The position numbers and the translations under genes were made by a program. Positions 4,041 through 27,834 of a DNA stretch of 40,527 nucleotides are shown here, in pieces. Numbering within the stretch: position 1 is the first letter of the stretch; each line of letters opens with the position of its first letter. The stretch comes from a virus, in IMG/VR virus record IMGVR_UViG_3300044535_001024, positions 1-40,527 of that record. One strand, written 5' to 3'. The notes under the pieces are model-generated. The model was given only the letters and a program-made list of their open reading frames with translations. It was not told the origin of the DNA and did no database searches.

Positions 4041-4211
4041 ATGTATATGAGTGATAACAATAAAAAAATTAAAAATCTTAAGATTTCGGTTGAATCTCAC
4101 GAAATATTGAAGAAATATTGCGATAAAAAAGGTATTAAGATTTACAAGTTTGTGGAGAATTTAATTATCGAAACTTGTAAAGAAAAGAAAGATATCTATG
4201 GTGAGCGTTAG
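4041..4211 (+). CDS. Small ribbon-helix-helix-like DNA-binding protein
   Basis: This 56-residue frame starts MYMSDNNKKIKNLKISV and ends at TAG 4209-4211; ATG 4047 is an alternative start. The pattern is a short strand (IKNLKISV), a helix (SHEILKKYCDKKG) and a second helix (IYKFVENLIIETCKEKK). This is the layout of Arc/MetJ-type ribbon-helix-helix repressors, which bind operators as dimers through the strand. It lies on the plus strand between minus-strand structural genes and overlaps the end of the gp15-like gene by 4 bases. A host-type promoter sits upstream, so an early-expressed regulator is plausible. The fold assignment rests on pattern only. Confidence 0.6.
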   Translation: MYMSDNNKKIKNLKISVESHEILKKYCDKKGIKIYKFVENLIIETCKEKKDIYGER

Positions 4212-5248
4212 ACTATCGTCGCTTTAAATTCAATAGTCGACGTTTGATTTGGAAATTCTTTCACGATTTCAAACCTAACAATACTATTAGCATTTAGTTG
4301 TATTTTGACAGGGTTTATACCGTAGTATTCATCATTAACAAAAACATCATATGAATCAACATTGTCAGTTTTAATTAATGTCAAATCAACTTTATCGTAA
4401 AATCTTTTTGTTGCAAAAACATTTTCGTCAACAAATTCAATCGTGGTATTATAATTTTTAGGATTGTCTGATAGAGACCTTCTTTTTCTATTATCAACAC
4501 CTTGAGTTGTTTCGAATAATTGGAAAACTCTTTCGACACCGGGTTTAACTTCAAACTCATCTTCATCCATTAAGAATCCCATCATAGTGAACTCGTAACT
4601 TTGTATATAATATTTTCTTTTCTCAACGTCCATTACCGATTCGTCAGATACATTATCCATAATTATAGGAATGTAATGTCCTTTAATTTGAGTATATGCT
4701 TGTTTTGATGAAAATTTCTGTAAAATAGTTTTATTAAGAGTGTTTAATTCTCTCATTCTGTTACAAATAATTTTAACAGAATATTTTATATCAACAGGAA
4801 CAGGTTGAGGTATCTTATACACATCAACATTAATTCTATTCCCATCAAAACTTGGAACCGAGGCGTAATAAAATTCTTTTCTGTTTGGGATTGTCCACAG
4901 TAGTGATGGTAATGAACCGTATTTTATTTCAGGATTTCTAACAACTGTAATAAATGGTGGTGAGACATTTTTATCCAAGTCTTGGAAGTTCCAAGTTTGT
5001 GTAAATTGAGCCCAATTTTGTGTGGTAATTAAAATATCTGTTGTTGGAATTACTTTTCCTTCTGTAACCACTTTTAAATCATTTTTAACAAAATCTAAAA
5101 ATCCTCCATCCAAATCTGCGTGTAAAATTGATTTTGGTAAAAAAGTTCCGTGTTCGTTAATTTTATCTAATAACTCAACTCTACGAGGATATAATGTCCT
5201 GTAGGGAGTTAACTCAATATTTTTTTTTATTTGTTTAGGAAATCCCAT
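4208..5248 (-). CDS. Putative tail terminator / sheath stabiliser (T4 gp15-like)
   Basis: This 346-residue protein has no signal peptide or membrane segment. The middle part (DIKYSVKIICNRMRELN at about 153-169, then VMDVEKRKYYIQSYEFTMM at about 207-225) has the layout of T4 gp15: a beta strand over a region handling 'multiple-subunit' contacts, a central 'ipi' strand and a terminal xxRxxxxxxxEF strand. gp15 caps the tail tube and sheath and docks to the neck. The context supports this: it lies in one minus-strand series with a gp14-like neck protein and directly upstream of the sheath gene. The C-terminal 80 residues are beta-rich and may be an added Ig-like or PEGA-like domain (YDVFVNDEYYGINPVKIQL). 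Similarity to gp15 is weak by eye. Confidence 0.5.
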   Translation of the reverse strand: MGFPKQIKKNIELTPYRTLYPRRVELLDKINEHGTFLPKSILHADLDGGFLDFVKNDLKVVTEGKVIPTTDILITTQNWAQFTQTWNFQDLDKNVSPPFITVVRNPEIKYGSLPSLLWTIPNRKEFYYASVPSFDGNRINVDVYKIPQPVPVDIKYSVKIICNRMRELNTLNKTILQKFSSKQAYTQIKGHYIPIIMDNVSDESVMDVEKRKYYIQSYEFTMMGFLMDEDEFEVKPGVERVFQLFETTQGVDNRKRRSLSDNPKNYNTTIEFVDENVFATKRFYDKVDLTLIKTDNVDSYDVFVNDEYYGINPVKIQLNANSIVRFEIVKEFPNQTSTIEFKATIV

Positions 5249-5249
5249 A

Positions 5250-5798
5250 TTAGTATTTTAAAATTTCGTTAATTACGAATAATTTATTCTTTTGGTTAAT
5301 CATATCAACCTCTTTCGCTCGATATACAGGTTGTTTTGTTGATTTATAAACAAAACTATCATATTTGTAAGGGTCGTATGTTACGACATTATCATTTGAT
5401 TCCTGAGGCATATTTTTACAAGGATATTTACAATAATCAACTAAATCTCCAATAACAAAAGCGTGAACATTTTTACTTTTTTCACTTCTAACTTTTTCTT
5501 TTCCACCCTTTCTAACCCTAAACTCAACATCGTTTAATTTAACATAATCTGCGTGAAGGATTACTTTGGATTTATAAGTAACCGAAAAAGTATGTTTATG
5601 TAAGTTATAATAAACCATAACTCTTTTACCTTTAAAATCTTCTTCAGAATTATCGTGTCCACATTTATGACAAATATATGGGTCGTCACCACCTTCAGAT
5701 AAATCCCAAGACCAACCACAATTGTCACAAATTACTTCTTTATTTGTGACAGTTTCAACTATTTTTTCATACTGGGTTTCCGTTAATAATATTTTCAT
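5250..5798 (-). CDS. Zinc-ribbon protein of unknown function with N-terminal LTE tag
   Basis: This 182-residue protein begins MKILLTETQYEKIVE. Residues about 24-47 hold a zinc ribbon (CDNCGWSW and CHKCGHDN, two CxxC pairs). Next comes a conserved-looking domain, GKRVMVYYNLHKHTFSV followed by KNVHAFVIGDLVDYC, a type I recall from other phage genomes without a known function. The first seven residues fit a T4-style capsid-targeting sequence ending in L-T-E, and the next gene upstream has almost the same tag. Its ATG overlaps the upstream stop (TAATG), so the two are translationally coupled. Possibly a virion-internal, DNA- or RNA-binding protein. Confidence 0.7.
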   Translation of the reverse strand: MKILLTETQYEKIVETVTNKEVICDNCGWSWDLSEGGDDPYICHKCGHDNSEEDFKGKRVMVYYNLHKHTFSVTYKSKVILHADYVKLNDVEFRVRKGGKEKVRSEKSKNVHAFVIGDLVDYCKYPCKNMPQESNDNVVTYDPYKYDSFVYKSTKQPVYRAKEVDMINQKNKLFVINEILKY

Positions 5799-6091
5799 TA
5801 GTTCTTTCTAGAGTATTTGAACCCTGTTTTTAGTTTATCGTTATACACCGCAGATATTATCCTTAAAAAATCTATTTTTTTATAATCAATGTTAGGGTGT
5901 CTACGTTGGAACATATCACTAAGTCTTTGGGCTACCCAATTTTCATATACCCCAAAATTGTCGGGTTTATTTCTTGGACCACCACTTTTAATCTCATTAT
6001 TCAAATGATGAATAACGTAATCAACAAGGTCACTTATTTCGTGAGCTCTTCGTAATACCTCTATTTGTGATTCTGTAATTAATATTTTCAT
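5798..6091 (-). CDS. Small protein of unknown function with N-terminal ITE tag
   Basis: This 97-residue protein begins MKILITESQIEVLRRA and continues with a helical, charged sequence (ISDLVDYVIHHLNNEI, then RLSDMFQRRHPNIDYKKID). I do not recognise a domain. The first eight residues nearly repeat those of the next gene (MKILLTET). The tag resembles the T4 Alt propeptide MELITE, which the prohead protease removes. It is coupled by stop/start overlaps to both neighbours in a minus-strand operon with the gp14-like neck gene. It may be processed to about 90 residues. Confidence 0.65.
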   Translation of the reverse strand: MKILITESQIEVLRRAHEISDLVDYVIHHLNNEIKSGGPRNKPDNFGVYENWVAQRLSDMFQRRHPNIDYKKIDFLRIISAVYNDKLKTGFKYSRKN

Positions 6092-6606
6092 TATAATCCT
6101 TTAAATTCGTCAGCACTTACAGGTGATGCCGTAATAGTTCGGTAAAATGGTTTGTAACCCGCATACGTATGTTTATTATCTGAGACAACTCTACCATCAT
6201 TATTAACCACATAGTATCTAACTCTTGTTTCCGTTTCGTAGTATCCAATATAGTCTCCATATTCAATATCAATACCCAATTCTTCAAGTTGTGATTGATA
6301 TACCGATATACGAATATTACCTGGCTCAAACTGTTCAATTTTAGAATTACCTATATACTTGTTCTCAGGTGCCATTACTTGAACAAGACCCTTAAACTCC
6401 ACAGGAACTTGAAACTTAATACCATTGGAGACGGTTTCACCGTAAACATCATCTGTTTTGGTTTTATATCTATCAACACGATATAGTATTAAAGTGAAGT
6501 TCATATCTCCCTCTAACCACTCCCTTCCCATTCCAACCTCTAAATTGAAATCTTCTCCACCGAAAAATTTTCCTAATCTTGTTATAGGTACTTTATTTTG
6601 ACTCAT
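6091..6606 (-). CDS. Putative neck protein (T4 gp14-like)
   Basis: This 171-residue beta-rich protein ends with YGDYIGYYETETRVRYYVV, DGRVVSDNKHTYAGYKPFY and RTITASPV. That ending resembles the C-terminal half of gp14 neck proteins in marine T4-like phages. gp14 joins gp13 to complete the head and close the DNA channel after packaging. It is the first gene of a minus-strand series leading to the gp15-like and sheath genes. Its start at 6606 overlaps the divergent helicase reading frame by up to 9 bases. The assignment is from remembered motif similarity plus context. Confidence 0.5.
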   Translation of the reverse strand: MSQNKVPITRLGKFFGGEDFNLEVGMGREWLEGDMNFTLILYRVDRYKTKTDDVYGETVSNGIKFQVPVEFKGLVQVMAPENKYIGNSKIEQFEPGNIRISVYQSQLEELGIDIEYGDYIGYYETETRVRYYVVNNDGRVVSDNKHTYAGYKPFYRTITASPVSADEFKGL

Positions 6607-8424
6607 ATTGATAAATATCTAAAAGTTTATTATCATTACATAAATAACTGCGATTTGGAAATTAATACATCAGACAGTAAACCATTAATAGAACAACAAG
6701 CCCTTGAGATTCTTGGGACTTATTCTGGTGCGAATAACTATTTGATGAGGTTAAAAAGACAACAAGAGTTGAATAAAAAGTTCTTCCCAACAAGAGCTCA
6801 GTCAGAATACATTATAAATTATTTTAACGTCGTTCCTAAGGTTGCAAAGAAATGGGTTAATTTGGACCCCTACTTCGCTCAAAAGATTGCCGATGAAAAA
6901 CTATACACTAAAGTCCCTGAACAAATTTGGATTGAAAAACTTTTAGTTGAAAAGGACAAATCCTATCACATTTGGGGTAAGGTGTTTGAAAATGAAGATT
7001 TGCACGAATTTTGGTTGCCAAAAGGTGCTGTTATCAAAACTCATAATGTTGAAAAGGTTGAAATTGATTACTCGAAATATTCTCATCGTCCCCCACTTAA
7101 TCACCAAAAAGAGGCTATAGAAAAATTAGTAGGATGTAAAAGATTTATTTTGGCGGATGATATGGGGTTAGGTAAAACAACCTCAACAATTATCGCAACC
7201 TTAGAGACAGGAGCAAAAAAGATATTAATCATCTCTCCGGCATCCCTTAAAATTAACTGGATGAGGGAAATTCAGAATTATACTGATAGAAGTGTCTATA
7301 TTTGTGAAGGTAAAAACTACTCAACAGAACACGACTTCGTAATCATTAATTACGACATTATTAAAAATTTCTACGATATTAAGGACAAAGAGAACAGTCC
7401 AATATATCAAACAAACTTTGATTTAATAATCATCGATGAGGCTCATTATCTTCAAAACTCTCAAGCACAAAGAACAAAACTTGTCAATCATTTTGCCAAA
7501 CAAGTTGATAGATTATGGTTATTAACAGGTACCCCAATGACTTCTCGACCAATAAATTATTACAATTTATTAAACTTAATTGAGTCTCCCGTGGCACAGA
7601 ATTGGATGGCTTATGCAATTCGTTATTGTGAAGGGTATCAATTTAAGGCGGGACCAAGAAAGGTGTGGAATGTAAAAGGGGCGTCAAACTTAGAAGAATT
7701 AAGAGACAGAACATCAAGACAAGTTTTAAGACGTTTGAAAGAAGATGTGTTAGATTTACCTGATAAAATTATAACACCAGTATACCTGAGATTAAAATCA
7801 AGATTATACGAAGAATTAATGGGAGAGTATTACGATTGGTATAGAACTAAAACCGAAGAATCATCATCATTAACACTACAATTTTCAAAATTAACTAAAG
7901 TCAGACAAATCATTGCTGAGGAAAAAATATCAAGTACAATCGAGTTATGTGAGAATATCATAGAACAAGGTAAGAAGGTGATTATCTTTACAAACTTTAC
8001 AAATTCACTTCAAAAATTAGTCGAACATTTTGGAAAACAATGTGTTTTTCTTGACGGAAGTTGTTCTCAACCACAAAGACAATACGCAGTTGACCAATTC
8101 CAAAATAATGATAAAATAAATGTTTTTGTGGGTAATATTAAAGCCGCGGGAGTTGGAATCACGTTAACAGCTGCGGAGGCGGTTATTATGAATGACTTGT
8201 CGTTTTTACCTTCGGACCACAGTCAGTCTGAAGATAGGGCGTATAGATATGGACAAAAATCAAATGTATCGGTGTATTATCCGATATTTGAAAACACCAT
8301 AGAAGGTGTTATTTATGATATATTATCCAAGAAGAAATCAATCATTGAAACTGTTATGGGTGATAACCTTGATAAGACGGATTTTGTTGAAGAAGTTTTG
8401 AATTCTATAAACAATAGTAGATAA
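6598..8424 (+). CDS. SNF2-family DNA helicase/translocase
   Basis: This protein of up to 608 residues is a superfamily 2 ATPase of the SNF2/SMARCAL1 type. Visible motifs are I (DDMGLGKT, 187-194), II (DEAH, 280-283), III (LLTGTP, 308-313), a second RecA-like domain from about 455 (VIIFTNFTNSL), motif V (AAGVGITLTAAE) and motif VI (QSEDRAYRYGQ, 543-553). Such phage enzymes remodel DNA in replication and recombination, a role played by UvsW in T4. The N-terminal 160 residues hold an accessory domain. No in-frame ATG occurs before 6744, inside what looks like conserved sequence, so initiation at TTG 6598 or a nearby non-ATG codon is likely. A TGATAAATA element at 6605-6613 could be a promoter if the start is downstream. 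Confidence 0.9.
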   Translation: MTHIDKYLKVYYHYINNCDLEINTSDSKPLIEQQALEILGTYSGANNYLMRLKRQQELNKKFFPTRAQSEYIINYFNVVPKVAKKWVNLDPYFAQKIADEKLYTKVPEQIWIEKLLVEKDKSYHIWGKVFENEDLHEFWLPKGAVIKTHNVEKVEIDYSKYSHRPPLNHQKEAIEKLVGCKRFILADDMGLGKTTSTIIATLETGAKKILIISPASLKINWMREIQNYTDRSVYICEGKNYSTEHDFVIINYDIIKNFYDIKDKENSPIYQTNFDLIIIDEAHYLQNSQAQRTKLVNHFAKQVDRLWLLTGTPMTSRPINYYNLLNLIESPVAQNWMAYAIRYCEGYQFKAGPRKVWNVKGASNLEELRDRTSRQVLRRLKEDVLDLPDKIITPVYLRLKSRLYEELMGEYYDWYRTKTEESSSLTLQFSKLTKVRQIIAEEKISSTIELCENIIEQGKKVIIFTNFTNSLQKLVEHFGKQCVFLDGSCSQPQRQYAVDQFQNNDKINVFVGNIKAAGVGITLTAAEAVIMNDLSFLPSDHSQSEDRAYRYGQKSNVSVYYPIFENTIEGVIYDILSKKKSIIETVMGDNLDKTDFVEEVLNSINNSR

Positions 8425-8468: not shown

Positions 8469-10130
8469 ATGAAAAACTTAGTAAACAAGATTGAAGAGTT
8501 GAAAGAAGAAGTTAAAAAAAATGAACGTGACTTTGCCCAAAAATTTTTCATTAATGAAATGAAAAAAATAGGTATTGAAAAATTACCTTACTCCTACAGT
8601 TCCCTTAAAAGATTTATTGACCCCGAAACTATGGATGTCCACTATAACAAACACTACAAAGGTTATGTGGAAAAATTAAACTTAGCATTGGATAAGAAAA
8701 AATTTGGGGATTTAGATTTAGAACAAATAGTTAAAACAATTAGTAGATTTAATAATGATGTTAGAAACAATGCCGGAGGAGCTTACAATCACGCATTATT
8801 TTGGAAAATGTTATCCCCAACCCAACAAAAACCGGGAGGATTAGTTTTAAAAAGAATTGAAAAAGATTTTGGAAGTCTTGCGGGTTTAAAGAAAAAATTT
8901 AACGCAATTGCAAAAGAAAGATTTGGTTCAGGATGGGTTTGGTTAGTTATCACCAAAAACAATTCTTTAAAGATTATGTCAACACCAAATCAAGACAATC
9001 CATTAATGAACGATGTTGAAAATGGTGGGTACCCAATTCTTGGATTAGATATATGGGAACATGCTTATTATTTAAAATACAGAAATAAACGAGACGAATA
9101 TGTTAAAAACTTTTGGGAAGTTGTTAATTGGGAGTTTGTTGAAAAACTTTATAAAATGAAAATTGAAACTCGTATTGATGAAGAAGTAGTTATGATGCAA
9201 TTAATGAATAGTACATCTCAAGATATTTTAACAGAATCAGAAATAAAATCTCAAAGTTGTTCTCACAGTGAGGAACTTAAATTTAAATCCTTATTATTTC
9301 CATCCAGTAATTTACCATACATTTTTAAGAAGTTTAAATATGACTATGTACAAGGGTGGATGGATATTCTTAAAAAAGAATACCCTCAAAATTGGAGAGA
9401 AAAAAACTCATTATTTGTTGGTCACGAGGCAGGTTTATACGATAAACAAAATGTTAGGTCTTTATTAATGAATTTAACTTCATCATATTCTGCATTTTGT
9501 GTTATCCATAAAGATATTAACCAATATTTGTCTCAAAATGGACAACCTAAAATAGAATACGGTGATGACCCACAGATAAATTTATCTGAATTAAAAAGAT
9601 TCTTTTCTGTTTTAGACGGACTTCGTTCACAAATTTTCAATAGAAATACACAATCTAATACTTTAAAACAAATAGGGGGTATCTTAAAAAGAACCGATTG
9701 TTTAGGTAAACGAAATGAAGACGCGGCAATGAAAATTATTAACCAACATTTAGGTGAAGGTGCTTGTGAAATCCAAGCCGGAGCGGGTAGTTCTTCAGAT
9801 ATGTTGTCAGGGATTGATGCCACTGTAACTATAAATAACCAATCATTAACGGGTCAAATTAAACCTTTTCAAATTATAACACAATTACCAGATGGTAGTT
9901 TTTCAATACAAGGTTCGTCAAGTCTTCAAGAATATAAGAAAGTTGATATTATCATATTTGTCAATGTTAAAAGTAAAACTGTTAAGATTTATAAAACAAA
10001 TGGTATTAAAATCAATAAAAATACATTCGTTATTCCAAATGAAAATGAAATTATGACATTAGTTGGTTCTAAAGATTTGGAATTAATTGATTGTAACAAA
10101 TATTTATCAGAAAACATAATATGGGAATAA
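8469..10130 (+). CDS. Superoxide dismutase fused to PD-(D/E)XK nuclease-like domain
   Basis: Residues about 37-230 form a complete Fe/Mn superoxide dismutase. The metal ligands are H58, H108, D194 and H198 (DIWEHAYY), with GSGWVWLV at 153-160. Q175 in STPNQDNPL and AGGAYNH suggest the manganese type. This enzyme turns superoxide into oxygen and hydrogen peroxide. Residues about 260-553 form a second domain. Its motifs E417, D450 (SGIDATV) and Q463-I-K465 (TGQIKPF) fit a PD-(D/E)XK nuclease core. The junction at 251-257 reads QDILTES, a good match to a T4-type prohead protease site. No family I know joins these two domains. It overlaps the next gene by 10 bases. The SOD call is firm; the nuclease call is tentative. 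Confidence 0.88.
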   Translation: MKNLVNKIEELKEEVKKNERDFAQKFFINEMKKIGIEKLPYSYSSLKRFIDPETMDVHYNKHYKGYVEKLNLALDKKKFGDLDLEQIVKTISRFNNDVRNNAGGAYNHALFWKMLSPTQQKPGGLVLKRIEKDFGSLAGLKKKFNAIAKERFGSGWVWLVITKNNSLKIMSTPNQDNPLMNDVENGGYPILGLDIWEHAYYLKYRNKRDEYVKNFWEVVNWEFVEKLYKMKIETRIDEEVVMMQLMNSTSQDILTESEIKSQSCSHSEELKFKSLLFPSSNLPYIFKKFKYDYVQGWMDILKKEYPQNWREKNSLFVGHEAGLYDKQNVRSLLMNLTSSYSAFCVIHKDINQYLSQNGQPKIEYGDDPQINLSELKRFFSVLDGLRSQIFNRNTQSNTLKQIGGILKRTDCLGKRNEDAAMKIINQHLGEGACEIQAGAGSSSDMLSGIDATVTINNQSLTGQIKPFQIITQLPDGSFSIQGSSSLQEYKKVDIIIFVNVKSKTVKIYKTNGIKINKNTFVIPNENEIMTLVGSKDLELIDCNKYLSENIIWE

Positions 10131-21435: not shown

Positions 21436-21564
21436 CTAATCATTAAGAGCAAAAATAACTCTTGTTGATAAAATTCTTAATACATTATTGGAAACACTAA
21501 ACGAGGTATCATTTGCTCCGACATTACTTATTGTTACTAATACTGTTTGAATTACCGTACTATT
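21436..21564 (-). other. Out-of-frame open extension of the fibre gene
   Basis: After the fibre stop TAA (21565-21563) a frame shifted by one base stays open for 42 codons to TAG at 21438-21436. It starts [16 protein letters not shown] and ends ILSTRVIFALND, a protein-like beta-rich sequence. It has no start codon of its own. It could be a 3' end lost through a recent frameshift, the product of programmed +1 slippage at the stop, an assembly error, or chance. It fills most of the 209-base gap before the next gene; the rest is the terminator and an A/T-rich leader. Confidence 0.35.
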
Positions 21565-24500
21565 ATGAAATTGATACTGTCACTGGTTCGTTTACTGGTG
21601 GAGTTCCATTAATTAAATTATTAAAATCCGTTACGTTATTATATTTTGGACTTCCTGTTCCTATAATTCCTAAATTTCCAAATTTAGCCCAACTAGTCGC
21701 AGCCAAATCGGTTAATATTTGGTCAACTTCAGTAGTATCAAACCCTGAAGAAGCGGAATCAATACGTAAAGTTTGAAAATTTGAAGCCCAAGCTCTTGGT
21801 GCACTATATGTCGTTATTGTATTATCTCCTGCAATAACAAAATAAGTGATATTTGTAGGTATTAATGATAAATCACCACTTACTGTATTATCACCATCAA
21901 TATAAACATAAGTTGCTGTTGATGGTAAATCTTGAATTTGTCCAAATACGGTATTAGTACCATTTATAACTATCACCTCCATATTTGGTGGAAGATTATT
22001 AGTTCTTCCACTCACAGTTGTATCACCACTTAATCGAAGATTGATTAAACCTGTTGGTAAGTCGGCAATATCTCCATATACCGTATTAAGACCACCAAGT
22101 TCTAAACTTTGTATCGTACTAGGTATCGACGCAGTATCTCCGTCAATAGTGTTCACTCCTGTAACCGCAAAATTAGTAATACTAGTAGATGCCCAACTTG
22201 CAAAGTCACCAGATAAGGTATTTTCACCTCTTGCTTCAAACGAAGTAATCGATAAAGGTATATTACCGGTATCTCCTGATATAATACCATCCAAATCGCT
22301 ATAAGTTAGTAAACTAGCAGGTAAATATACAACATCTCCAACAACACGCAAATTAGTTCCCCCACTAAATGATTGACACGAAGTTGCTTTAGCAATTTCC
22401 GTAGTAAGTATGATTATATTAGGATTCAAATCTAAACTTCCCACAACTAATTCTTCAATAGTTGACAAATCAATTGAACTAACAACTATATTACTATTGG
22501 TTGCCGGAGAATAAGTATGGGTTAAAGTTGTTAATGGTCCAACATTAAAAACCTCAATCGGTGAGCCGTCACCCCAATTTACATAAACAGGATGTATAAT
22601 AGTTGTTATACCCAAGGTAGCACCCGTTGACTCCTTAGGATTTATATACATTTCCATTAATGGTACCAGTGTTGGTGTTGGAGTATTTGTTGGAGTATTT
22701 GTTGGAGTATTTGTTGGAGTATTTGTTGGTGTTAATGTTGGAGTATTTGTTGGTGTTAATGTTGGTGTTAATGTTGGAGTTGGAGTATTTGTTGGTGTTA
22801 ATGTTGGTGTTGGAGTATTTGTTGGTGTTAATGTTGGAGTTGGGGTATTTGTTGGTGTTAATGTTGGAGTTGGTGTGGAAGAAGGGCATGGAAATGGTAA
22901 TCCCCAAGTTAATTGTGTATAATATTCTTGTACACTAAATGTTAAAATAATTTCGTTAACTGAACCACTAAATTGAATAATACCATAACCTTCCGTACCA
23001 GATAAAGTTTGATTTGGGAGGTCGTATGTGATTTGATAAACAGGGTTACTAACCGTATCACAATAAATTGAGAATGGTGTGTTAGCTGACATTGTTACTG
23101 TAACTCCTGTGTAGATATTATTTCCTAACGAATATATTGCCAATAACGGATTTAGTACAGATTCTGAGAAAGTATATGTGTACGTATCTGCATCAAAAAT
23201 ACTTTGAACATTAGTATTTGGATTTTTATCAATACATCCTGATAATGGAGTATAATCAAACACCGGCTGAATATACGTTAAGCTCGATGAAGTTAAATTT
23301 AATGAAATGGTTGTACCCGTAAAATTACCACCAGTGGTTCCCGTCCAAGTTATCCATTTTGTGCAAGGTATTGGTGTACGAGTTGGTGTTGGTGTTGGTG
23401 TATTTGTAGGAGTTTGTGTATTTGTTGGAGTATTTGTTGGTGTATTTGTTGGAGTATTTGTTGGCGTTAATGTTGGCGTTAATGTTGGAGTATTTGTTGG
23501 TGTATTTGTTGGAGTATTTGTTGGCGTTAATGTTGGCGTTAATGTTGGAGTATTTGTTGGTGTATTTGTAGGAGTATTTGTTGGTGTATTTGTAGGAGTA
23601 TTTGTAGGAGTATTTGTAGGTGTATTTGTAGGTGTATTTGTAGGAGTTTGTGTATTTGTTGGGGTTACTGTTGGTGTTGGTGTATTTGTTGGAGTATTTG
23701 TTGGTGTTGGTGTATTTGTTGAAGTCATTGTTGGTGTTAATGTTGGAGTTGGAGTATTTGTTGGAGTATTTGTTGGAGTTGGAGTATTTGTTGGAGTATT
23801 TGTTGGAGTTGGAGTGTTTGTTGGCGTATTTGTTGGTGTTAATGTTGGAGTTGGTGTATTTGTTGGTGTTAATGTTGGGGTTGGTGTATTTGTTGGTGTT
23901 AATGTTGGGGTTGGTGTATTTGTTGGGGTTGGGGTTGGAGGAATACAATTAGGACAATCATAGTTAAATAATTCAAATTTATCTTTTAATAATAAAAAGT
24001 TATGTTTAACTTCATCCGCAGATAATGGTTCAGTATACATTCTAAATTGAGATATCGCACCGTCAAAACTTCCCGCAAAATTTTGTTCTAATAAAATATT
24101 TGTGGTTAATGCTGATAATGAAGTCCCGCTTAAAATATTATTCGGTAAACATTCGGGGTCCTGTTGATATATTAATCCGTTTAAAGATTCAGGACATCCT
24201 GTGAACGTTAAATTATTATGTAACCCTTGAGTTCCACCTCCCCAAGAAATATTATATGGTACACCTACTTGTCTTTCTTTTTCAGTATCTAACGCTCTCG
24301 GTATTATTTCTTCAATATCTTCAAATGTGTGGAAAATTCTACCATTAACATAAACTTTTAACCTACCTTTTCTATAATCTTTTTCAATTAACCATCTCTC
24401 GTTTAATCTAACAACTTCAATTTTTTCTGCAGGTGTTGAACCAGTACTTGTTATAGGAGGTTCTATTAATTTTGTGGACTGATTGACTAATGAAAACAAA

Positions 24501-25825
24501 TATGGGTTATCAGTAATTAAACCTAATCCACCTCTATACCATAAATCACAAGTATCAAACCAAGTATATCTTTCCCAAACTAAATCTAATTGAATCCAAT
24601 GTTCTCGAATCAAAAAATCAGGATTGATATTCTCACAAAAATCGTATATTCCATTAGGTGTGCATAAGTTATCAACAGTATAACCTGTTTGATATGTAAT
24701 ACCTGTAGTTGAACAACTACCTGTTGTAACGCAATCTCCTGTGAATCTTAAAATTCTAACCCCTATTTGTGGGTTATGAACATCTCCACATAATTTAAAT
24801 GCCAACGCATTTGAAAAATCATCCCATTCAGGATTTTTATCAGGGTTAATACTTGTAATTGTAGTTAAATTACATCCGCAATTGCAATCCAAACCGTGAG
24901 ATTGAATCTCATCACTAGGATTGTACACATCAATACAACTTGAGTTTGTGATTCCGGTGTTTCCACAAGAACAAGTTTTTAAACAAGTTAATGTTTCTGT
25001 TACTCGAGTATATCCACTATCCGATTCGGGACTACCACTGGCGTGATGGTAAAATTTATTCTCAGCTCTAGTCCCAAGATAAAAGAAAATATCTTTGTTA
25101 TTTGGATAAAATTGATTTAAAGTTACCTGATTAATTGGAGGATTGTATTCGTTTACAAATCTTGGTTTTAATAATACCTCAACGGTCCAACCTTTATTAA
25201 CCCTTTCAGGGTATAATGTATAATCATATCCAAATAACTTATAAAATCCTTGGTAGAAACCACCATATAGTTCGTGGTACACCCCAACTTTATAGTCTTC
25301 TTTTGAAACAATATTATATGATATGTCATTAGGTAAACCCGAAAATCTAATATTTGGTGATTGGGTAAACCCCGTAACTTGGTGTAATTTTAATCTTCTA
25401 TCAAAACTTAATCTATCGAATTTTTCTGAATCAGGTAGTAATCCTTCTGTTACTGAAATAGTTTCACCTGTCATTTGAGTTACTAATCCATTATCAATAC
25501 CTGTTAAACCAATATCACAAATAGTTTTTGCGGTATAACAACTTAAATCAACATTATTCGGATTATAATAGTTTGAAGATATTAGGTTATTTTCAAACAC
25601 ATAATCGTTAAAATTAAGAACAAATAATTCACTATTTTCTGGATTATCCAAATCAAAATTAAATGGTAATCTGTTACCGTCATTTTCGGCGATAATTAAT
25701 GGGGAGAAAATCACTTCCTCCTTATAGTCCCTCTCGTCTGAAGATAAGGAAAAATCCTGAATTTCAGACCTACCAAGAAGATACCACTTCTTAAAATTAT
25801 ATTGATTTATATTTTGATATGCCAT
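21563..25825 (-). CDS. Large fibre/adhesin with lectin-like head, Thr/Pro stalks and LRR-like tail
   Basis: This 1420-residue protein has no signal peptide. Residues 1 to about 628 look like a baseplate-attached N-terminus ([19 protein letters not shown]) followed by LamG/concanavalin-like beta sequence ([36 protein letters not shown]) with a Cys-rich insert near 285-320. Residues about 629-816 and 984-1054 are TPTNTPTPT repeats, likely extended stalks. A beta domain lies between them. Residues about 1055-1420 hold some seven repeats of about 22 residues with the pattern NTV-x-GD-x3-LP, resembling a leucine-rich or BspA-like solenoid. I infer a virion adhesin for host binding. A T4-late-like promoter (TATAAATA) precedes it. 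The GlcNAc-transferase gene lies downstream. Confidence 0.75.
22665..22878 (-). repeat. Second Thr/Pro codon repeat tract of the fibre gene
   Basis: Tandem units of 6 to 12 bases (seen on the plus strand as gttggt, gttgga, gtattt, gttaat) encode TPTNTPT and TPTLTPT at about residues 984-1054. The units are imperfect, typical of slippage-prone stalk repeats. Confidence 0.9.
23379..23943 (-). repeat. First Thr/Pro codon repeat tract of the fibre gene
   Basis: About 565 bases of imperfect tandem units encode [12 protein letters not shown]-type repeats at about residues 629-816. Longer blocks recur: one unit containing two copies of the gttggcgttaat pair appears twice, near 23460 and 23520, which points to duplication. 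Open frames on the opposite strand here are a by-product of the repeats. Confidence 0.92.
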
Positions 25826-25833
25826 AATACTAT

Positions 25834-25861
25834 GATAAATACTTTGTTCGGAGTATTTATA
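25834..25861. promoter_or_regulatory. Divergent T4-late-like promoter pair within a perfect inverted repeat
   Basis: ATAAATACT (25835-25843) and AGTATTTAT (25852-25860) form a perfect 9-base inverted repeat with an 8-base spacer. The minus-strand arm reads TATAAATA exactly (25861-25854), the T4 late box, about 28 bases before the fibre ATG. The plus-strand arm reads GATAAATA (7 of 8), about 33 bases before the ATG at 25875. Each arm is placed to drive the gene it faces. Confidence 0.65.
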
Positions 25862-25874
25862 TATAAAAAGTAAA

Positions 25875-26729
25875 ATGATTGAAACTAATAAAGAATATTT
25901 TTTAAGTCCGTACTATTTTTATATCACGGAAAAAAACGATAAAATATCGTTATATTATTCAATTGCCGACACTTTAACTGAATCAAGAAAAAAAGATGAT
26001 GTAATTGATTTTGATAAAAAAGATTTGGGTAAGGTAAAAAAAGGTATTTCTAATATTTTAAAAGGTAAAAAACTTAAAACAAAACAACAAGTTAAAAACT
26101 ATTTTGAACCAATCTCAAAAGATAAAACTGAAATTGAAGAATTAGTTGATGGAGATGGTAATTTGACAGGTTCAAGAATCCCACCATTAAATCAGGCATT
26201 GTCCCCAAGACAAACTACGGACCAAACTGTTGCTCAATCAAGAATGCCAGGTAATCCTCTTATGGGTTATAAAAAATATTATAACGAGTCTTCCAAAAAA
26301 GATGAACAAATTGTTAATGAAGTTGATTATTCTGAAGCATTTGGTTATGAAGAGACTAAAGATATGGATGGTAAAGAAACTTATCATTATTTAGTTAAAA
26401 AAATGGGAATGACTCCTGATGATGCAAAAGAAAGAGTTAACCAATTTGGAAAAGATTATACAGGAAAAAGAACTAAAAACGCACCAAAAAAGATTAGAAA
26501 TAAAAAAGGTTTTATTGATAGAATGACTTTATCTGAAATTGAACGTCAAAAGATGATTAAAGTGATTGATGAAATTTTATTAAACAAGAAAAATAGAGAT
26601 ACCGAAATTACCAAAAAAGAAAGTAATGCGTCTAAAATTGTTAAGAAGAATGTTGAATCATTAAAGAAAATGGCGGAAAAAGAGGGTTTAACGATAAATC
26701 AATTAATTAAAATGTTAAAAAGTGAATAA
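25875..26729 (+). CDS. Lysine-rich protein of unknown function with LTES site
   Basis: This 284-residue protein is rich in Lys, Glu and Asp. It begins [17 protein letters not shown] and has LTES at 34-37, followed by RKKDD. A middle part ([19 protein letters not shown]) is probably disordered. Two helical parts follow ([19 protein letters not shown] and [19 protein letters not shown]). It ends in a small helical module, [17 protein letters not shown]. If the LTES site is cut, the product is a basic protein of about 248 residues, as expected of a T4-like internal head protein that binds DNA. That is an inference; I recognise no domain. It is the first gene of a five-gene unit under a late-like promoter. 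Confidence 0.7.
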
Positions 26730-27135
26730 GGATTTATACGGAAAATCTTATAAGATTCCTCCACATATTTTGAAACATTTACAAAGTTGTTCTGGTGAAC
26801 AGACTATTGGTAATTTATTATCTTCAGGTAATATTTCATATTCTTTAATTAAGAAATGTATTCACAGAATGGAAAATGGTGAAAAAGAATCTTTAGGTGG
26901 TGATACATTCTATAATTGGTTAAAACAAACGTTATCTTCAGATAGAAACAGTTTAGAACTTTCAAAAAACGCTAAGTCTGAGTCAGGTGTTTCAAATGCT
27001 CACAATCAAACACATACTAAAAATAATTTAAAAGATATGAATAGACCAAGTAAAAGTCATCATTCTCACAATGCTGATATTAAAATTACTGAAAGTCTAA
27101 AAAGAATAAACGAACTTATTTTAAAAATAATATAA
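26722..27135 (+). CDS. Small phage protein of unknown function with C-terminal ITES site
   Basis: This 137-residue protein starts at GTG 26722, inside the end of the previous gene (8-base overlap); no better ATG is near. The start [19 protein letters not shown] and a mid-part GGDTFYNWLKQTL belong to a type I recall from other phage genomes, always without function. A His-rich stretch (KSHHSHNADI, 111-120) leads to ITES at 122-125 and a 13-residue helix, LKRINELILKII. Cleavage after E124 would release this C-terminal peptide. It may be a structural or head-associated protein. Confidence 0.65.
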   Translation: MNKDLYGKSYKIPPHILKHLQSCSGEQTIGNLLSSGNISYSLIKKCIHRMENGEKESLGGDTFYNWLKQTLSSDRNSLELSKNAKSESGVSNAHNQTHTKNNLKDMNRPSKSHHSHNADIKITESLKRINELILKII

Positions 27136-27136
27136 T

Positions 27137-27427
27137 ATGGCACAACAAGAACCAATTGATTTAACTCAAAATGAGAAAAACTCATTATCGGCAATCGCCG
27201 AATTAGAAAGAAAAAAATTATTTCCAAGAAACGATTACAACACATCTAATTTGTATTCGTCCACTAATCCAGATGCTTTGGCAACAGGAGATGAACTAGG
27301 TAAAGGAACTGGAGGTGATTTAGATGTGTATAATAATAACGCAGGAGCAATTCAAGATATTATTGAAAGAAAAAAAGAAATAGTTATTAACAAGTTCACC
27401 CAAGATAAAACATATCCTGATTTCTAA
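27137..27427 (+). CDS. Small phage protein of unknown function
   Basis: This 96-residue protein begins MAQQEPIDLTQNEKNSLSAI. A helix (AIAELERKKLF, 19-29) is followed by a Tyr/Asn-rich part, DALATGDELGKGTGGDLDVY, then DIIERKKEIVINKF. It is hydrophilic with no membrane segment. IAE at 20-22 fits a loose (L/I)-X-E protease site but lacks the T-E-S form of its neighbours. It is packed between genes carrying that form and its stop overlaps the next start (TAATG). It may belong to the same virion set. Confidence 0.6.
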   Translation: MAQQEPIDLTQNEKNSLSAIAELERKKLFPRNDYNTSNLYSSTNPDALATGDELGKGTGGDLDVYNNNAGAIQDIIERKKEIVINKFTQDKTYPDF

Positions 27428-27834
27428 TGAAATTAATTAACACGATAAAAAATTTAATTACCGAAGCAGCAACTTTGGAAGATGTTCTTGATTCTATTAA
27501 GAATAGAAAAGTTGTTATAATCTATTATGATGGTGATGAACCAGGTGGTAGAGGTTTAAGAGAAATTGAACCTGTTTGCATCGGTGTTAGTAAAGCGAAT
27601 AATAGAATTATTAGAGCTTGGGATAAAGAAGGTTCTTCTCATACCGCGTATAAAGGGGAACAACCATTACCAGGGTGGAGAATATTTCGTCTTGATAAAA
27701 TTTTATCACTAAAACCTACCGGTGAAGTTTACAATGAACCAAGACCTGGTTATAATTTTAATGGAGATAAGACTATGGCAAGTGTCATACTTAACGCCAA
27801 ATTTAATCAACCACCAGAAGAAAACGTAGTATAA
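27427..27834 (+). CDS. WYL-like domain protein with N-terminal ITEA tag
   Basis: This 135-residue protein begins MKLINTIKNLITEAATLED. Residues about 28-100 resemble a WYL domain: KVVIIYYDGDEPGGR, REIEPVCIGVSK, RIIRAWDKEG and GWRIFRLDKILSLKP. WYL domains are ligand- or nucleic-acid-binding regulators in bacterial transcription factors and in phage-defence systems. Here it stands alone, without a DNA-binding helix-turn-helix. The N-terminal 13 residues, amphipathic and ending in I-T-E, look like a T4 capsid-targeting sequence (MKTYQEFIAE in IPI-III). It may be injected to act on the host, which is speculative. Confidence 0.7.
   Translation: MKLINTIKNLITEAATLEDVLDSIKNRKVVIIYYDGDEPGGRGLREIEPVCIGVSKANNRIIRAWDKEGSSHTAYKGEQPLPGWRIFRLDKILSLKPTGEVYNEPRPGYNFNGDKTMASVILNAKFNQPPEENVV

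Follow-up and report, generated by a model that had tools for sequence, protein, structure and literature searches.

What use could two adjacent viral genes have for almost the same first residues when the proteins that they encode share nothing else? The question arises in IMG/VR record IMGVR_UViG_3300044535_001024, which we analysed at its full length of 40,527 nucleotides (the window); this is the whole record, yet just a 40.5 kb fragment of the virus. In the motifs below, a vertical bar marks a known or predicted cut.

Two unlike proteins with a common head

The first protein, P1 (182 aa; 5250..5798, minus strand), has about 600 relatives in IMG/VR. It consists of an N-terminal tag (MKILLTETQYEKIVE, 5754..5798 (-)) with a predicted cut after E15 (IVE|T), a zinc ribbon (CDNCGWSW...CHKCG, residues 24-47, 5658..5729 (-)) with four invariant cysteines in alignment A1, and an L5_gp82 domain (residues 56-170, 5289..5633 (-); Pfam PF25735, Phage_L5_gp82, E 4e-30, 104.5 bits, above the gathering cut-off of 27). 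The structure model places the tag in a separate low-confidence helix (residues 7-17). L5_gp82-type proteins (Bacillus, other phages) align with P1 from about residue 42-62 among the matches listed, thus the body also occurs without the P1 head. Two contigs that are close to the window (L084 1717- and L085 10292-) have a P1 that is frameshifted right after the zinc ribbon, so that only the tag and the ribbon are left.

The second protein, P2 (97 aa; 5798..6091 (-)), combines an N-terminal tag (MKILITESQIEVLRRAHE, 6038..6091 (-)) with a helical body and has 46 relatives. Its model is all-helical (pLDDT 85); we found no family match in Pfam and PHROG and no significant match in a fold search against PDB. 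Candidate cuts follow E7 (ITE|S) or E18 (AHE|I). T6, E7, Q9, R14 and R15 are invariant in the family alignment and E18 is nearly so. The second site reads A-H-E in the window, outside [ILV]-x-E, and V/L/I-x-E in most relatives.

The sequence-only reading had reported near-identical heads on two adjacent, otherwise unlike proteins, one of them a zinc-ribbon protein, and both observations hold. The heads MKILLTETQ (P1, MKILLTETQYEKIVE) and MKILITESQ (P2, MKILITESQIEVLRRA) are identical at 7/9 positions and conservatively replaced at 2/9, their first codons are similar at the DNA level, and the bodies are unrelated. The proposed 7-residue unit proved too short, as the common part extends to [ILV]-x-E at about residue 15 in P1 and residue 18 in P2.

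Tagged proteins exceed chance in long relatives

Among 1361 ORFs of related loci, the motif [ILV]TE[STN]Q occurs 45 times within residues 1-10 and 3 times elsewhere; these loci were fetched via P1 and P2 relatives, and many of the 45 are P1 or P2 homologues. Because of this bias, we examined four long relatives with the head pattern of the sequence-only reading (MK-x(1-10)-(L/I)TE), using as control shuffles in which residues 2-41 were permuted and composition was preserved. Collected in this way, tagged proteins number 33 in G001 (292 kb; 3.6 in shuffles), 21 in G002 (273 kb; 3.1) and 12 in G003 (199 kb; 2.5), genomes in which P1 and P2 homologues are few. G005 (112 kb) has just 3, against 1.1 in shuffles. 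T4 shows no comparable excess with the same pattern and shuffles (4 vs 2.1), and its four matches include Alt and the Alt duplicate, both MELITE. Grouped by body, the tagged proteins of the relatives fall into many families that have nothing else in common.

One neck-protein start in G001 (MSIVIINEPERS) fits the pattern and was taken as a chance match because of the Pro after E. A C-terminal version of the tag (window 26722-27135 (+), ...DIKITESLKRINELILKII / ITESLKRINELILKII) was rejected, being not enriched in the relatives (11 vs 7.8 expected). A 23-residue tag used as tblastn query gave no match among cultured phages, a search in which short queries are insensitive, and the tag sequences were absent from the literature searched.

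Tag classes end at a common boundary

We distinguish four tag classes: class A (MKIIITESQYxxLxE), to which the P1 and P2 finding belongs, class B (MKKIIRLTESDLxRIVRRVINE), class C (MKNLFLLTEEEKxRILxLHE...) and class D (MxxLxxEIxxIKxxMxxLxE). In every class a hydrophobic start seems to lead through a Thr/Asn cap into an amphipathic helix running to hydrophobic-x-Glu.

IMG/VR was scanned with the DNA of the first 12 residues of class B, so that residues 13 onward were unselected. With a minimum length of 30 residues and bodies clustered at E 1e-3, we obtained at least 125 distinct proteins in at least 102 body clusters. Among the matches listed, [ILVMF]-x-E stands at residue 22 or 26 in 122/125; the hydrophobic-x-E lies at residue 22 in 107 and one helical turn on, at residue 26, in 15. 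Information content among these matches drops from 3.0 bits at E22 to 1.2 one position later and then stays at 0.1-0.5 (no higher than 0.46) starting with residue 24, and the residue after E is Gln, Asn or Ser in 80/122, with Gln at 10x background. Similarly, 73 of the 85 class A/B-type starts in G001-G003 have a second [ILVMF]-x-E no more than 20 residues past TE, compared with 42 in shuffles. Synonymous codons differ at most fixed tag residues, which indicates that selection acts on the protein sequence of the tag.

The boundary is retained where the tag itself is replaced. The P1 family is mostly class A, class D (MKKLLKEINFIKTRMSHMCE|GIEGEKVVC...) is found in several of L054-L081, and in L017 the P1 body is a downstream domain with NISE before it. 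Despite this class swap, the boundary Glu (E15) with a hydrophobic residue two positions before it (P3) is found in 49/51 distinct homologues. Among the few homologues that depart from the pattern, L034/L043 read LFD. In a HAD-like family the boundary hydrophobic-x-E is present in 41/41 members and followed by Gly in 40, while the N-termini differ greatly in length and sequence. A DHH-type protein starts with MKMVITESQYKRLLNE|SGIRN in G001 and with MKKLIKE|SGLRN in G003. The stop in conservation at [ILV]-x-E, together with the Glu kept under tag swapping, can be taken to mark the border between tag and body.

The portability of the signal, suspected from a single pair of genes, is thereby strongly supported: the same classes sit on more than 100 unlike bodies, and classes are exchanged on the same body. 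Loss of the tag from a body that is kept, which had been named as evidence against the idea, was seen in one case, the P2 of L058/L059. Here ILITES is gone through a true in-frame deletion, which goes against the idea, but the RRIYE boundary is kept. A check at the DNA level ruled out a mis-called start as the cause.

Head protease, capsid protein and hosts of the carriers

The long relatives encode the capsid protein gp23 and a gp21-type Peptidase_S77. We picked 22 long contigs solely through the DNA of class A or B tags; 20 of them have both genes, and the other two lack both and are probably fragments. Within our data gp21 and gp23 are seen in the relatives only, and the 40 kb window contains neither. 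In an alignment of major capsid proteins (MCP), LINE|A of the relatives falls on the T4 gp23 cut site FLTE|A, and Mel-JY01 has LISE|A. The tag carriers can be classed as T4-like phages by sequence, and the parallel to the T4 Alt propeptide (MELITE, removed by gp21) drawn in the sequence-only reading is well supported by this co-occurrence and by an MCP cut site that is likewise [ILV]-x-E.

The Bacteroidota -7 promoter box is TAnnTTTG, and the upstream words TATCTTTG and TATATTTG fit it. One P1 relative sits in a Flavobacteriales MAG contig, and by capsid protein Flavobacterium phage immuto (vB_FspM_immuto_2-6A, NC_055915) is one of the closest cultured relatives. For similar freshwater phages that encode prohead proteases, an assignment to Bacteroidetes has been published (PMC9723584).

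Immuto follows the design of the metagenomic relatives with different tag sequences. Its gp230 and gp083 have the common head MKKQILSEQF[KR]RMQ[FK]LAGIITE|S on unlike bodies, gp003, gp092, gp077 and gp076 have common FDLKKFLVEN[KR]LT-type heads, and its capsid protein, gp066, reads IVSE|A. The predicted cuts follow ITE22 in gp230 and gp083 and INE24 in gp003. A FDLKKFLVENKLT head, a class that we did not find in the metagenomic relatives, is found on four immuto proteins with largely unlike bodies (L324 1803-2318; L326 3806-4354, 17631-18632 and 18632-18931).

A variable cassette of tagged genes

P1 and P2 belong to a hypervariable tagged-gene cassette (window 4208-6606), with counterparts at this position in about 90 loci. 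Cassette comparison shows it anchored upstream by a conserved 171-aa gene (6091..6606 (-)) and downstream by a conserved 346-aa gene (4208..5248 (-)). Each relative has 0-4 inserted genes, nearly all tagged: P1, P2, MEYIITESKLFNAIYQ types (some duplicated), MKVLITESKRDRL, MKYIITESRLENFI and forms of 460-600 aa. G001 has no insert between the 171-aa and 346-aa genes. One insert clearly has no tag, a 233-aa protein (MIKICKICNIG...) resembling a homing endonuclease. The cassette resembles the situation of the T4 internal proteins (PMC3012670).

A TATTTAT box (6611..6617 (-)) is directly upstream of the gene set with P2 and P1. This word occurs 10-30 nt before the start in 53/85 tagged and 219/817 untagged genes (Fisher P 1e-10). 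We read it as a late-type promoter; the DNA polymerase gene has one too, and tagged genes may more often lead transcripts. In the window it also precedes the sheath gene. It is separate from the TAnnTTTG-type box, and this phage group likely has two promoter classes. The late T4 box TATAAATA was discarded, as it gave no consistent signal, unlike TATTTAT. Instances of TATTTAT 10-30 nt before start codons were seen in G001-G003, at window 6611-6617 and 25835-25841, and elsewhere.

The tag as a probable capsid-targeting propeptide

With tags on dozens of unlike proteins that end at the expected site of the head protease, an address label is the most likely function. We consider it quite probable that this portable head serves as a capsid-targeting propeptide, cut after [ILV]-x-E, and that the body is packaged and ejected. 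The hydrophobic extended start and the N-capped amphipathic helix (M-K-h-h-h-T-E-x-Q...h-x-E) would dock newly made cargo in the prohead's scaffold core. The gp21-type (S77) prohead protease would then cut after [ILV]-x-E and release the body, which would enter the head together with the DNA and reach the next host by ejection. In this scheme P1 and P2 would both be cargo, encoded by a cargo cassette within a structural operon. These steps of docking, cleavage, packaging and ejection are what we infer for the tagged proteins in general. The A-H-E site of P2, the lack of gp21 and gp23 in the 40 kb window, the few homologues outside the pattern (L034/L043 and L058/L059), the lysozyme- or amidase-like bodies and the different tags of immuto count against this reading.

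If the tag stayed uncleaved and merely docked the protein elsewhere (at the tail, the baseplate, a replication site, a protein partner or another phage assembly or compartment), the amphipathic helix by itself would be enough, and some tagged bodies are peptidoglycan hydrolases that may be tail-borne. We nevertheless hold it to be improbable, as it leaves unexplained why conservation stops right after [ILV]-x-E, why the boundary E survives a complete tag swap and why the same motif ends the propeptide of the capsid protein; moreover, no such head is present in the conserved families of tail sheath and DNA polymerase. Within the targeting system itself, the first site, ITE7|S, might take the main cut instead of E15/E18, the second site, on the model of T4 Alt (MELITE|L). 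In favour are the match of ITE to the L/I-x-E motif, the comparable position of the Alt cut, and the A-H-E at the second site of P2 in the window; however, Q9 and the following helix are conserved and the body starts after the second E in P1 and in proteins with class B tags, which makes a main cut at the first site rather unlikely. Both Glu sites may be used; use of both has been reported for phiKZ propeptides (PMC9026906).

The adjacency of P1 and P2 and the likeness of their first codons in DNA would also follow if their starts descended from a common gene start through duplication or recombination, with no present common function. This is very improbable, considering that the tag is on about 100 unlike bodies scattered across genomes and viruses with differing synonymous codons, that it is kept while bodies diverge, where unconstrained starts would drift, and that codon variation at fixed amino acids reveals selection on the tag. 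Still less credible is a preference in translation initiation or early codons rather than a protein signal: AT-rich MKI/MKK starts are common in these genomes, but the fixed T-E-x-Q/D...h-x-E residues are not AT-driven, the codon variation disfavours such a preference, and tagged proteins are in 5- to 9-fold excess over composition-preserving shuffles.

Comparison with known systems

Capsid targeting by a cleaved head, the function that we prefer for the tag, has its closest counterpart in T4. The heads in the T4 record are MKTYQEFIAE|A (ipII/ipIII), STITE|A (ipI), MAKINELLRE|S (gp24) and MELITE|L (Alt), with cuts that we presume from the motif and general knowledge of T4. The gp21 motif is L/I-x-E, and the 10-19-residue propeptides of the T4 internal proteins (IP) are capsid-targeting sequences (CTS) (PMC9026906); T4-like phages have been suggested to package various proteins via such propeptides (PMC9026906; PMC3012670). 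Like the CTS of IPI, IPII, IPIII and Alt, which gp21 cuts, the tags described here are short MK/ME heads on unlike bodies that end in L/I-x-E, the virus group has a gp21-type S77 protease and gp23, and the bodies are variable and often small. Unlike T4, they have another sequence (no MKTYQEFIAE) and several classes, mark roughly 10% of the proteins in the richest genome rather than four or five, belong to phages of Bacteroidota, and have a cleavage and a targeting that are predicted. We found no homology to the T4 head MKTYQEFIAE, with which only MK and the terminal h-x-E are common, and since the ipI, Alt and gp24 heads of T4 itself differ from it, that homology is not defining. Assignment of the tags to T4-type CTS is thus supported in every sequence comparison made except identity to this one T4 head.

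Among other phages, the SPN3US/phiKZ propeptides include identical heads on diverged proteins (gp53 and gp54; PMC5694885). SPN3US and phiKZ also have a Glu-specific prohead protease related to gp21; they differ in their motifs (A-x-E in SPN3US, S-x-E in phiKZ), in having longer propeptides and in the smaller number of proteins concerned. In DarB of phage P1, the N-terminal 30 residues are enough to bring a reporter into the head (PMC9024508); this is another phage with another head assembly, for which no set of proteins with a shared head is described.

Three things are new: the scale of tag use, the existence of several classes that can replace one another, and the cassette. T4 loads a handful of proteins by cleavable tag, whereas dozens per genome, in several classes, are apparently loaded here. 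On balance we lean slightly towards the broader proposal that T4-like jumbo phages of Bacteroidota mark up to about 1/10 of their proteins with a few interchangeable cleavable tags, so that the head cargo, including ejected effectors, can be read from the genome; the classes possibly load different core positions or stages. If true, the tags would list hundreds of unknown proteins carried into Bacteroidota cells, open a direct route to takeover and anti-defence effectors, and provide a ready label to load chosen proteins into these heads.

Candidate cargo

Most tagged bodies match nothing known; those with matches comprise, among others, phage lysozymes, LysM, amidase, DUF5856 / starvation-inducible regulator and WYL. 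The lysozyme- and amidase-like bodies could act from within as well. By fold, the P1 domain recurs within multidomain phage proteins that also contain ART-PolyVal, PcfJ and lysozyme parts; for such polyvalent proteins, injection along with the phage DNA has been proposed (Iyer et al. 2017, PMC5512222). P1 of the window differs from these multidomain giants in being a small protein of tag and zinc ribbon joined to this domain.

Two further proteins of the window have probable propeptides. A WYL-like protein (gene 27427-27834, (+); WYL E 7e-4) starts with MKLINTIKNLITE| (27427..27465 (+)), and its homologues have VITE|V and LINE|I at the corresponding boundary. A superoxide dismutase (SOD) fusion with Sod_Fe domains (gene 8469-10130, (+)) has a probable propeptide of 30 aa (8469..8558 (+)) that ends FINE|MKKIGIEKLPY, and N-extensions of its relatives end in LTE before the same MKKIGIE. 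The fusion is possibly a packaged, cleaved SOD. In this protein, composed of an Fe/Mn SOD and a further domain, [IL]-[TN]-E occurs both before the SOD and between the domains (ILTE|SEI, residue 254). Elsewhere in the window, a large tail-type protein (gene 21563-25825) contains a long 11-residue-letter repeat tract (22600-24000 (-)).
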